A DNA stretch of 46,806 bases, taken from the IMG/VR virus record IMGVR_UViG_3300017783_000047, positions 1 through 46,806 of that record; one strand, 5' to 3'. The DNA is from a virus. The notes beneath the pieces were generated by a model that saw nothing but the letters and a program-made list of their open reading frames with translations, searched no databases and was not told the DNA's origin. The position numbers and the translations under genes were made by a program. Positions 44,566 through 46,045 of the stretch are shown here, piece after piece (the first letter of the stretch is position 1; every line of letters begins with the position of its first letter).

Positions 44566-44594
44566 AGTATACACCAAGTGCCTCAGAATGTCAA
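44566..44594 (-). promoter_or_regulatory. Strong sigma70-type promoter (TTGACA-17-TATACT)
   Basis: The minus strand has a perfect -35 TTGACA at 44589-44594, a 17-bp spacer, and -10 TATACT at 44566-44571. The -35 overlaps the stop codon of the 71-aa gene. It points to the 72-aa and AbrB-like genes and suggests transcription by host RNA polymerase without phage factors. Confidence 0.8.
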
Positions 44595-44806
44595 GGAGTA
44601 ATGTACATTGGTTCCTCTGTAGATTGCTCTACTATTGTCATACTCCATCCAATGTGTTTGAGATAATCAAAGGGAGACATTCTCTCTGTCTGAGGGTATC
44701 TCTCTCCCCTACCTTCTCTTACACCGTCGAGGAATACTTCTAGGTCATAGACTGATGCGAATGACCCTACAATCTCCTCAGAGTCATTGTGAATGAGATA
44801 CTGCAT
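44591..44806 (-). CDS. Hypothetical protein, 71 aa
   Basis: No family recognised. The sequence MQYLIHNDSEEIVGSFASVY, then DLEVFLDGVREGRGERYPQT, MSPFDYLKHIGWSMTIVEQS and a short tail, looks like a small alpha/beta protein, two strands and a helix first. I chose the ATG at 44806. A TTG at 44815 would add three residues (74 aa); an AAGGA lies only 1 nt before the ATG, too close to be a normal SD, so the start remains uncertain. It lies about 50 nt below a near-consensus sigma70 promoter with a hairpin at the transcript start. Its stop is inside the next promoter. Function unknown. Confidence 0.75.
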   Translation of the reverse strand: MQYLIHNDSEEIVGSFASVYDLEVFLDGVREGRGERYPQTERMSPFDYLKHIGWSMTIVEQSTEEPMYITP

Positions 44807-44834
44807 ATCCTTCAAGTGTTGTTAGTTAGATACA

Positions 44835-44854
44835 AGAGGTGTTTCTGAACCTCT
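44835..44854 (-). promoter_or_regulatory. Hairpin at the start of the transcript for the 71-aa gene
   Basis: Inverted repeat with 6-bp arms (AGAGGT / ACCTCT) and an 8-nt loop, immediately downstream of the -10 box at 44863-44868. It would form at the 5' end of the RNA, as a stabilising stem, or act as an operator. Confidence 0.4.
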
Positions 44855-44862
44855 ACAAGGTT

Positions 44863-44891
44863 ATTGTACCATGTTTCTGATACTTTGTCAA
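44863..44891 (-). promoter_or_regulatory. Strong sigma70-type promoter (TTGACA-17-TACAAT)
   Basis: The minus strand has -35 TTGACA at 44886-44891, exactly 17 bp, then -10 TACAAT at 44863-44868. It drives the 71-aa gene and is one of the two best sigma70-type matches in the window. Confidence 0.82.
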
Positions 44892-45121
44892 GTGGGGTTG
44901 TTGTAAGTCTCTCAGAGAGGATTAGAGGGTCTTAGAGGTCATTGATAAGCAATGCAAATATCAGCACTGTGTATCAGAAATTCTCCGAGTATTGTGAGGG
45001 GTTGACATCTGATAGGTTGCGTGCTAAGACTACAACTCCTGAGGACAATTAAGGAAGATAAAGAACACTAATACATTTAATAAAGGTTTTCCACAGTTTC
45101 CGCATTATCTGTGGAAAACTA
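44892..45121. other. Intergenic stretch between the 42-aa ORF and the promoter
   Basis: About 230 nt with no frame longer than about 15 codons on the minus strand and no tRNA-like structure. It contains a small palindrome (CTCTC-A-GAGAG near 44911), a plus-strand TTGACA without a good -10 (45002-45007), and the inverted repeat at 45086-45119. Confidence 0.5.
45086..45119. repeat. Inverted repeat of two DnaA-box-like TTTTCCACA words
   Basis: Arms of 11 bp (GTTTTCCACAG at 45086-45096 and its perfect reverse complement at 45109-45119) enclose 12 nt. Each arm contains TTTTCCACA, which I recall as the cyanobacterial DnaA-box consensus. A one-mismatch copy, TATTCCACA, lies nearby at 45178-45186. 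The structure can also form an RNA hairpin, followed on the minus strand by CTTTATTAAAT, a poor terminator tail. Confidence 0.75.
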
Positions 45122-45250
45122 TTAATTAGAGTCAGTACGGTTGTTATTACGTTGTTTGATGATGTAATCTCTCCAGTTATTCCACAGGATAGAAGTAATC
45201 TCTTTAGATGTTATCTTGACGTAATGTAGTTGTTCTTTGAATGAGGTCAT
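45122..45250 (-). CDS. Possible small protein, 42 aa
   Basis: The frame MTSFKEQLHYVKITSKEITS, then ILWNNWRDYIIKQRNNNRTD, SN and TAA starts inside the end of the 76-aa gene and overlaps it by 47 nt in another frame. The composition (aromatic and hydrophobic first half, basic polar end) is protein-like, and it fills a space that is otherwise empty. No SD is evident. It could be chance; conservation of the frame in related phages would decide. Confidence 0.35.
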   Translation of the reverse strand: MTSFKEQLHYVKITSKEITSILWNNWRDYIIKQRNNNRTDSN

Positions 45251-45434
45251 AATCTTGGTAGGATACAACTAGGTTAGTTTGATTTGTTTTATGTTTAGAG
45301 TGTAATGCTATATCAGGGTGTTTAGGATATTCATGAATACAGATAGTTACATATTGTTCATCGATGAAATTGATGTAACCAGTGTGATGTTTATAGGAGA
45401 CAGTTTGTCCCTTAACGAATTCCTTAAACTTCAT
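45204..45434 (-). CDS. Conserved cyanophage hypothetical protein, 76 aa
   Basis: The sequence MKFKEFVKGQTVSYKHHTGY, then INFIDEQYVTICIHEYPKHP, resembles a small beta-barrel: GQxVSYxxxxGYINFIDEQYVTICI looks like two to three strands of an SH3-like fold. The second half contains a conserved-looking H/K/N-rich part (LHSKHKTNQTNLVVSYQDYD). From memory, similar short proteins are frequent in T4-like cyanophages and have no known function. Its ATG overlaps the stop of the 2OG oxygenase gene (ATGA at 45431-45434), so the two are probably co-translated. RNA or protein binding through the barrel would be a guess. Confidence 0.82.
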   Translation of the reverse strand: MKFKEFVKGQTVSYKHHTGYINFIDEQYVTICIHEYPKHPDIALHSKHKTNQTNLVVSYQDYDLIQRTTTLRQDNI

Positions 45435-46045
45435 TGATTGTCCCTGTTGAATATAGAGTGAGTGAAATAGTTTAATGCAATAACGATACGATAAGGGGCA
45501 TCTGTATGATTAGAACCAGAGTGCATGATTCTATTATCGAAAGTGACCAATCTATTCTTTTTTGATTCTACTTCAGTATAGTTAAATTGTCCATCATCAG
45601 TAACAGTTCGGAATGTTGTTTTACCGTTGTTATCATTTACATAGTAGATAGAAGTAAGACCAGGGGAAGATTCATCAGTATGAAAACCGTGAAGGGTTTG
45701 TGTTTCTTCCCATGGGTGAATGTTGCCTTTCACTCTAAAAAGAACGTCAGGATTAAGTTGAGTAATAAGGGGTTGAATTAAGGGGCATTGTTCAGAGTTT
45801 TCCTGACCATATCTCCAGAATACATGAGAGAATTGCCAATTACGATTAGGGGCACAAACTATATCAACACCTTCATATTCACCATCTTTTTGAGGTAAGA
45901 CTTCACCCCAATACCAAGGGAAATAAGATGACACATCAGTCATTTCATTAATTAACCAATCACAATAATCATCAGGCATAAAATCATCTTGAACAATGAT
46001 ATTATAGTTAATGGGAGTGGATGCGATTGGGATACTTAATGACAT
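45431..46045 (-). CDS. 2OG-Fe(II) oxygenase, 204 aa
   Basis: Members of this superfamily use 2-oxoglutarate, O2 and Fe(II) to hydroxylate proteins, nucleic acids or small molecules; several occur in cyanophages. The iron ligands are visible: His122-x-Asp124 (GFHTDESSPG) and His175 (RIMHSGSNH), with Arg186 (APYRIVIALNY) as the probable 2OG carboxylate partner. The strand SIYYVND and the sequence KKNRLVTFDN give the usual double-stranded beta-helix order. The N-terminal 110 residues (DDFMPDDYCDWLINEM, PWYWGEV) are typical of the prolyl-hydroxylase-like branch of phage enzymes. The substrate is unknown. It is followed by the 76-aa gene with an ATGA overlap. No SD is visible before the ATG. All key residues are present, so it should be active. 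Confidence 0.9.
   Translation of the reverse strand: MSLSIPIASTPINYNIIVQDDFMPDDYCDWLINEMTDVSSYFPWYWGEVLPQKDGEYEGVDIVCAPNRNWQFSHVFWRYGQENSEQCPLIQPLITQLNPDVLFRVKGNIHPWEETQTLHGFHTDESSPGLTSIYYVNDNNGKTTFRTVTDDGQFNYTEVESKKNRLVTFDNRIMHSGSNHTDAPYRIVIALNYFTHSIFNRDNQ

Follow-up and report, generated by a model that had tools for sequence, protein, structure and literature searches.

The window analysed here, a 46,806-base IMG/VR virus record, belongs to a T4-like cyanophage genome, and the 1.6 kb around the site are 99.8% identical, in reverse orientation, to Synechococcus phage ACG-2014g (KJ019071, 174,885 bp, Kyanoviridae). The site is contained in a 388-bp gap (44816-45203) between two small minus-strand genes, 44591-44815 on the left (phrog_718, at the position of T4-GC_640 in annotated records) and 45204-45434 on the right (phrog_522, at the position of T4-GC_383). 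Such a gap is unusual in size, since the accessible part of PMC5931967 gives a median intergenic distance of 6 bp for the cyanomyovirus S-PM2d. No gene is annotated across the gap in the near-identical KJ019071 record, and in other phages a small gene (GC_383) reaches with its 3' end into the equivalent stretch. An open frame of 36 aa runs on the plus strand at 44942-45052, a stretch where the annotated genes of relatives are all on the minus strand; in both S-SSM5 and P-SSM7 the conserved block listed below is covered by short genes of this kind, and in several relatives the boxes are covered by the GC_383 tail. At 45431-46045 lies a gene annotated as 'DNA endonuclease V' (also phrog_274), with a sub-threshold Pfam match to 2OG-Fe(II) oxygenase (E 1.6e-4), which is the name of the S-SSM4 gene at a like position. 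Next to a gp6-like gene, one open frame on the minus strand runs for 7019 aa (17012-38071); in position only, it recalls the long phrog_2885 proteins that neighbour gp6 in two other contigs (L606, L608).

The site lies 4.6 kb upstream of gp25, at the junction of a conserved structural module with a hypervariable region. When 2.5-kb flanks of the neighbour gene T4-GC_389 were taken from the best 80 of 134 relatives (L275-L354), the downstream flank was fully present in 78/80 and the upstream flank in 12/80. A genome end was considered as the reason for the short upstream flanks and rejected, as the contig ends are scattered all along the upstream side, a pattern that fits assembly being broken by a hypervariable region. 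The features of the locus are the following.

44863-44891, minus strand: sigma-70-like promoter TTGACA-17-TACAAT, from a consensus scan, reading leftward into the gene 44591-44815 (phrog_718; T4-GC_640 position).
44996-45035, plus strand: conserved block GAGGGGTTGACATCTGATAGGTTGCGTGCTAAGACTACAA, TTGAC and CGTGCTAAGA columns kept in 21 phages, with a promoter-like -35 and a poor -10.
45056-45085, no strand: AT-rich stretch, candidate DNA-unwinding element, the least stable 30 bp of the element, abutting the boxes.
45087-45095, plus strand: DnaA-box-like word 1, TTTTCCACA, exact, kept in relatives.
45097-45104, plus strand: degenerate middle word TTTCCGCA, in the layout of the host oriC pattern GTTTTCCACNNTTTCCNCA.
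45110-45118, minus strand: DnaA-box-like word 2, TTTTCCACA, exact, facing word 1.
45178-45186, plus strand: third word TATTCCACA, one mismatch, aligning with TTTTCCACA of Syn30.

The facing words form the perfect 11-bp inverted repeat reported by the first-pass annotation, GTTTTCCACAG (45086-45096) opposite CTGTGGAAAAC (45109-45119) across a spacer of 12 nt, and the third word was found where it had been placed, 60 nt off; in Syn30 an exact TTTTCCACA stands 91 nt from the core. Word 1 and the middle word constitute a double box, GTTTTCCACAGTTTCCGCA (45086-45104), whose middle word takes the form TTTCCACA in several relatives. In the conserved block, TAAGAC stands 17 nt after TTGACA and makes a poor -10. 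The spacer of the block (TTGAC...GTTAGG...CGTGCTAAGA.TACAA) is partly conserved as well, and therefore the block is not a plain promoter. The GTCAAG columns of the promoter at 44863-44891 are retained across the alignment of 21 phages. Windows of 30 bp less stable than the AT-rich stretch make up 0.5% of the genome in ACG-2014g, 0.2% in ACG-2014d and 0.05% in Syn33; the stretch is weaker in P-SSM7, where 8% of the genome windows are less stable. A cluster of DnaA-box words adjoining AT-rich DNA, as is asked of an oriC, is hence found here, weakly in P-SSM7. The conserved feature reaches farther left than the first-pass annotation had drawn it, to about 45000; that annotation had also missed the upstream block and the AT-rich DNA, as well as the overlap with coding sequence seen in relatives.

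Conservation of the element was analysed with several baits. A blastn search with 44990-45135 retrieved 241 phage records, every one named cyanophage or Synechococcus or Prochlorococcus phage, 177 of them spanning at least 80% of the query. The element measures about 120 bp and is terminated by the facing words. Among 21 aligned phages, drawn from blastn matches to a query with the words in it, the common layout is GGGGTTGACA - spacer - CGTGCTAAGA.TACAA - AT-rich DNA - TTTTCCACA - TTTCCGCA - facing TGTGGAAAA, with ACG-2014d, where the words run head-to-tail, as the exception. A sample independent of the words was provided by the loci fetched through T4-GC_389: 46 of the 80 have at least 990 nt upstream, and 41 are distinct (38 with stricter duplicate removal). 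The inverted repeat, proposed earlier as something to look for in related phages, is there: the exact facing pair TTWTCCACA/TGTGGAWAA occurs in 41/41 distinct loci from these best 80 of 134 relatives, and in 38/38 after the stricter removal, where GTTTTCCACNNTTTCCNCA is exact in 17/38. The block is present as exact CGTGCTAAG in 36/41. With the upstream motif as bait, 61 distinct matches preceded by TTGAC were obtained, and a TTCCACA word lies within 170 nt in 56 of them; the other five are three incomplete sequences and two complete ones (L166, L181). With a profile ending before the boxes, 77 distinct elements were compiled from blastn-derived phages and loci fetched by the block motif, the word-pattern loci (L005-L123, L494-L595) being left out; as part of this set was fetched by the block motif, its figures for the block are inflated. 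At least two exact words, that is, the close-set boxes expected for cooperative binding, are present in 71/77, one word in 1/77 and none in 5/77.

Box number and orientation vary among the relatives. Laboratory cyanophages with the element include S-RIM8, Syn33 and S-CAM22, and the boxes of S-RIM8 are untranslated. The other DnaA-box form, TTATCCACA, is present in S-SSM4, S-SSM6b and two contigs (L164, L183), and both forms agree with the cyanobacterial DnaA-box 9-mer (TTTTCCACA, variant TTATCCACA). No exact word was found at the block in P-RSM1, P-RSM4 and metaG-MbCM1, nor probably in P-RSM3 (weak block match, E 0.0037); these are four of the seven diverged phages fetched, and the other three, S-MbCM6, S-RIM14 and S-SSM6b, keep words. 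P-RSM1, P-RSM3 and P-RSM4 are Prochlorococcus isolates, yet P-SSM7 is one too and has the pair; therefore, host genus alone fails to explain the loss of the boxes. Since the block persists where the boxes are lost, it must have a job of its own.

Bare word counts are unremarkable, and it is the arrangement and the conservation of the words that exceed chance. In the 46.8-kb window exact TTTTCCACA is found only as the two facing copies, TTWTCCACA is observed twice versus 1.6 expected, and matches with at most one mismatch number 11 versus 19.8 expected. The whole of KJ019071 contains four TTWTCCACA, two of them at the site. Across 20 related complete phage genomes, 42 of the 113 TTWTCCACA sites are no more than 150 nt from the element, another 18 fall at 150-1000 nt, and the remaining 53 lie elsewhere; from the rate elsewhere, 0.09 and 0.52 sites would be expected in the two nearer classes, the 20 genomes being related and not independent. 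The reversed control pattern gave 54 matches in total in those genomes, and therefore the 53 sites elsewhere look like background. Many copies elsewhere had been named beforehand as an argument against a dedicated site; few further ones exist in the window, in KJ019071 and in the 20 complete genomes.

The double box extends beyond the phages that carry the block. In its strict form, GTTTTCCACARTTTCCRCA, it was found in at least 119 viral stretches versus 7 for the reversed pattern, and 110 strict double-box loci were classified, 35 with the upstream block and 75 without it. Eighteen of these 75 are on diverged T4-like contigs with a gp25 relative 36-53% identical, and in 18/18, where the block was not detected, the double box is upstream of gp25, at 2.9-10.2 kb; sides and distances were read from match coordinates, and the contigs are not independent. 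Among the rest of the 75, one locus has a wedge-protein relative only (box upstream) and one a GC_383 match only. Neither the block nor any of the seven phage proteins searched for was found at 55/110 loci. In the three contigs examined (L606, L608, L619) T4-type baseplate wedge families are present. In T4-like and unassigned phage contigs (L643, L591, L606, L608, L619, L627) arrays of TTTTCCACA/TTTCCACA are denser than in the marine phages.

The identity of the words was anticipated by the first-pass annotation, which took them for cyanobacterial DnaA boxes, and this assignment is well supported. In the accessible part of PMC4674748, most cyanobacteria have TTTTCCACA as their DnaA-box consensus, and domain IV of Cyanothece DnaA binds box pairs. 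Moreover, GTTTTCCACAGTTTCCGCA matches the double DnaA box of the host oriC next to dnaN. The joint pattern GTTTTCCACNNTTTCCNCA occurs in 18/201 host-family genomes, once in each, and its reversed control in none; the pattern was composed after the oriC of WH7803 had been seen, so that the host match is partly by design and is a consistency test rather than a blind prediction. An exact match is absent from the other 183/201. In 17 of the 18 a DnaN match is on the same locus, roughly 125-200 bp off, and in the remaining genome (G020) the pattern is at the genome end and the dnaN match begins at base 25. WH7803, host of many such phages, has GTTTTCCACGTTTTCCCCA at bases 5-23 and a dnaN match from base 174; the words at its oriC, TTTTCCACG/TTTTCCCCA, each have one mismatch. 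Other genomes of the same genus have GTTTTCCACGGTTTCCACA and similar forms at the equivalent place, and GTTTTCCACAATTTCCACA, present in two host-family genomes, is one base from the commonest phage version. No genome-wide enrichment of TTTTCCACA was found in the hosts (WH7803, 14 versus 15 for the reversed control; RCC307, 8 versus 7). WH7803 encodes a full-length DnaA that aligns end to end with the DnaA of known structure 8btg, with FGGKDHTTV opposite FGGRDHTTV in the C-terminal DNA-binding domain, and no such C-terminal domain was found in 3/3 phages searched. In six host oriC loci (L476-L480, L484) a run of TAC repeats (CTACTACTAC) is directly right of the double box, and the phage element is without such a run. 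These host repeats resemble the 'DnaA-trio', a trinucleotide motif known from other bacteria.

What is observed is the sequence, how it is conserved, how it resembles the host oriC and the low stability of the adjoining duplex; we infer DnaA binding, DNA opening and origin activity. That the site is a host-DnaA binding module is, as a prediction from sequence, likely. To serve as part of a phage origin would be its most likely function, an assignment made tentatively. The two taken together, a host-DnaA binding module of T4-like cyanophages that is most likely part of the phage replication origin, come close to, but stay short of, an even chance. Boxes next to melting DNA are the layout of DnaA-dependent origins, and a promoter-like block next to melting DNA that of T4 origins. 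Host DnaA would load onto the boxes early in infection, and the loaded protein would help to open the adjoining AT-rich stretch; a transcript from the conserved block might serve as primer, and the phage helicase-primase could then start. Against an origin stand the loss of the boxes in some Prochlorococcus phages and the example of T4 itself, which is not known to need DnaA for starting replication; T4-type phages are held to be independent of the host initiator.

The relation to GC skew, which had been suggested as a check, gave no support, as no extremum coincides with the element in the four phage genomes analysed. Detrended GC skew of the four whole genomes has its minima at 88-101 kb and its maxima at 20-36 kb. 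Third-position skew peaks at 51.2 kb in ACG-2014g, 53.4 kb in Syn33, 15.5 kb in ACG-2014d and 23.1 kb in P-SSM7, with the element at 45.1, 46.7, 36.8 and 46.0 kb, respectively; these third-position maxima come nearest to the element, 6-7 kb away, in ACG-2014g and Syn33 and are not common to the other two genomes. Skew in the four genomes is dominated by the strand bias of the genes, and the switch expected at an oriC was not seen. No description of DnaA boxes or of an origin in T4-like cyanophages was found in the open-access literature searched, a scope outside which most subscription papers lie; within the literature searched, the element thus names a precise candidate origin where none was found. 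If the proposal is true, phage replication would be linked, through a conserved host-oriC-like module present in hundreds of T4-like cyanophage records, to the cell-cycle control of the host.

Several other explanations have to be weighed against a phage origin. In one of them, which we regard as less likely though a serious rival, the boxes would hold host DnaA, like E. coli datA/DARS, and so slow host initiation or reset DnaA, with no phage start. Boxes can act alone in such a role, and the extra boxes nearby are variable in place and number; according to the accessible part of PMC5835720, datA contains two boxes of consensus sequence and four with one misfit. However, the phage element offers few strong boxes only, and a sink would need neither an AT-rich stretch nor the block nor a near-constant layout. 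Transcription control, by which host DnaA on the boxes would repress or time the GC_383 family on the right and the GC_640 family on the left, is a serious rival of similarly low probability. In 10 of the 20 phages inspected an exact TTTTCCACA stops 0-1 nt short of the start codon annotated for GC_383, which keeps a regulatory role in play; in S-RIM2 it is 3 nt from that start, and in S-H25 a copy precedes an unannotated upstream ATG. In many loci a word moreover precedes GC_389 by about 35 nt, and there is a promoter-like site nearby. The constant boxes, on the other hand, are at the 3' end of GC_383, not at a promoter, and GC_383 of the window has no box at its start. Counted up to 3 nt before the annotated ATG, TTTTCCACA is present in 11/20 phages (L124, L125, L127, L128, L132-L134, L138, L139, L142, L004), and no clear Shine-Dalgarno is found there.

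A different host or phage protein might recognize TTTTCCACA, the likeness to DnaA boxes being coincidental. The exact word is not used at the oriC of WH7803; but word, doubling and spacing all agree with the host oriC, and position 3 varies between T and A, as in DnaA boxes, which makes a coincidence improbable.

The facing pair could also have been kept as a peptide or as a hairpin. On the gene strand it reads F-S-T...V-E-N, and in 18/41 distinct loci and 8/19 isolates translation of GC_383 runs through it, so that it forms the tail of the protein (FSTDNAEIVENIK and similar). Were it maintained for encoding FSTDNAEIVEN, the untranslated copies would be remnants; however, the 9-mers are still exact in the 23/41 loci where a stop 0-1 codons upstream leaves the pair untranslated, the 18 translated loci have no synonymous change inside the 9-mers while the codons between them vary, and head-to-tail arrays exist without this peptide, so that such an origin of the conservation is quite improbable. 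Coding may account for part of the conservation in some phages. Since the 9-mers are exact where untranslated and free of synonymous change where translated, it is the DNA word that appears selected.

With regard to RNA, the consensus fold of 56 sequences with 14-nt spacing returned the stem of the facing repeat at -8.6 and -9.0 kcal on the two strands, with shuffles near 0, and no further helix was predicted; a fold of 76 sequences, in which the boxes are misaligned, gave 0.0 kcal, as did shuffles. A stem changing with its pairing kept had been raised as a sign of an RNA terminator. No compensatory change was seen, and the words themselves are constant. In 97 facing exact pairs, which include loci fetched by word pattern, the bases just outside the 9-mers are pairable in 45/97 and those just inside in 21/97, with A opposite C in 57/97. 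The words are head-to-tail in ACG-2014d (four), L164 and L183 (three each, one being TTATCCACA) and L196 (three). The Rfam gathering search of the window was empty, and the conserved pairing with compensatory change and U-tract of a structured RNA or terminator was not found. An RNA hairpin stabilizing or terminating a 3' end is thus very improbable and an RNA role unlikely, for although the window has a perfect 11-bp repeat, the 56 sequences a consensus stem and one weak terminator-like prediction was obtained, the stem is without covariation, its flanking bases pair in a minority of cases, some arrays are head-to-tail, and neither another helix nor a U-run past the stem was found. Hence the DNA word, rather than a hairpin or a peptide, seems to be kept.

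A host-DnaA module within a phage origin can be compared with several known systems. Plasmid and phage origins that use host DnaA, such as P1 oriR, combine DnaA boxes with adjacent AT-rich DNA on a mobile replicon; boxes and AT-rich stretch are shared by the cyanophage site, where no initiator gene or iterons were recognized alongside. With E. coli datA/DARS the element shares the compact cluster of DnaA boxes outside oriC, although it has fewer boxes than datA, and a datA/DARS-like action on DnaA-ATP would be an analogy only. With T4 oriF (ori-uvsY) it shares the T4-type phage, a promoter-like block beside easily melted DNA and a place in the wider neighbourhood of gene 25. In T4 the annotated position of oriF is the start of uvsY, adjacent to gene 25, whereas the cyanophage site is about 68 kb from uvsY and 4.6 kb upstream of gp25; synteny with T4 oriF was therefore rejected. 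DnaA boxes are not known to be part of T4 oriF. The cyanobacterial oriC beside dnaN (described in print for S. elongatus, Anabaena and Cyanothece, and located here in marine Synechococcus) shares with the phages the TTTTCCACA-type words, the abutting double box GTTTTCCAC-NN-TTTCC-N-CA and AT-rich DNA nearby. The phage element differs in its extra facing box and in having no adjoining dnaN; it is without the CTAYTAC run to the right of the host boxes and has the TTGAC...CGTGCTAAGA block. It is conceivable, as a more speculative proposal, that T4-like cyanophages start, or help to start, their replication via host DnaA, the grammar of the host oriC having been grafted onto a T4-type promoter/unwinding origin. 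Such a graft would have been gained or lost by lineage, as the block occurs without boxes in some Prochlorococcus phages.
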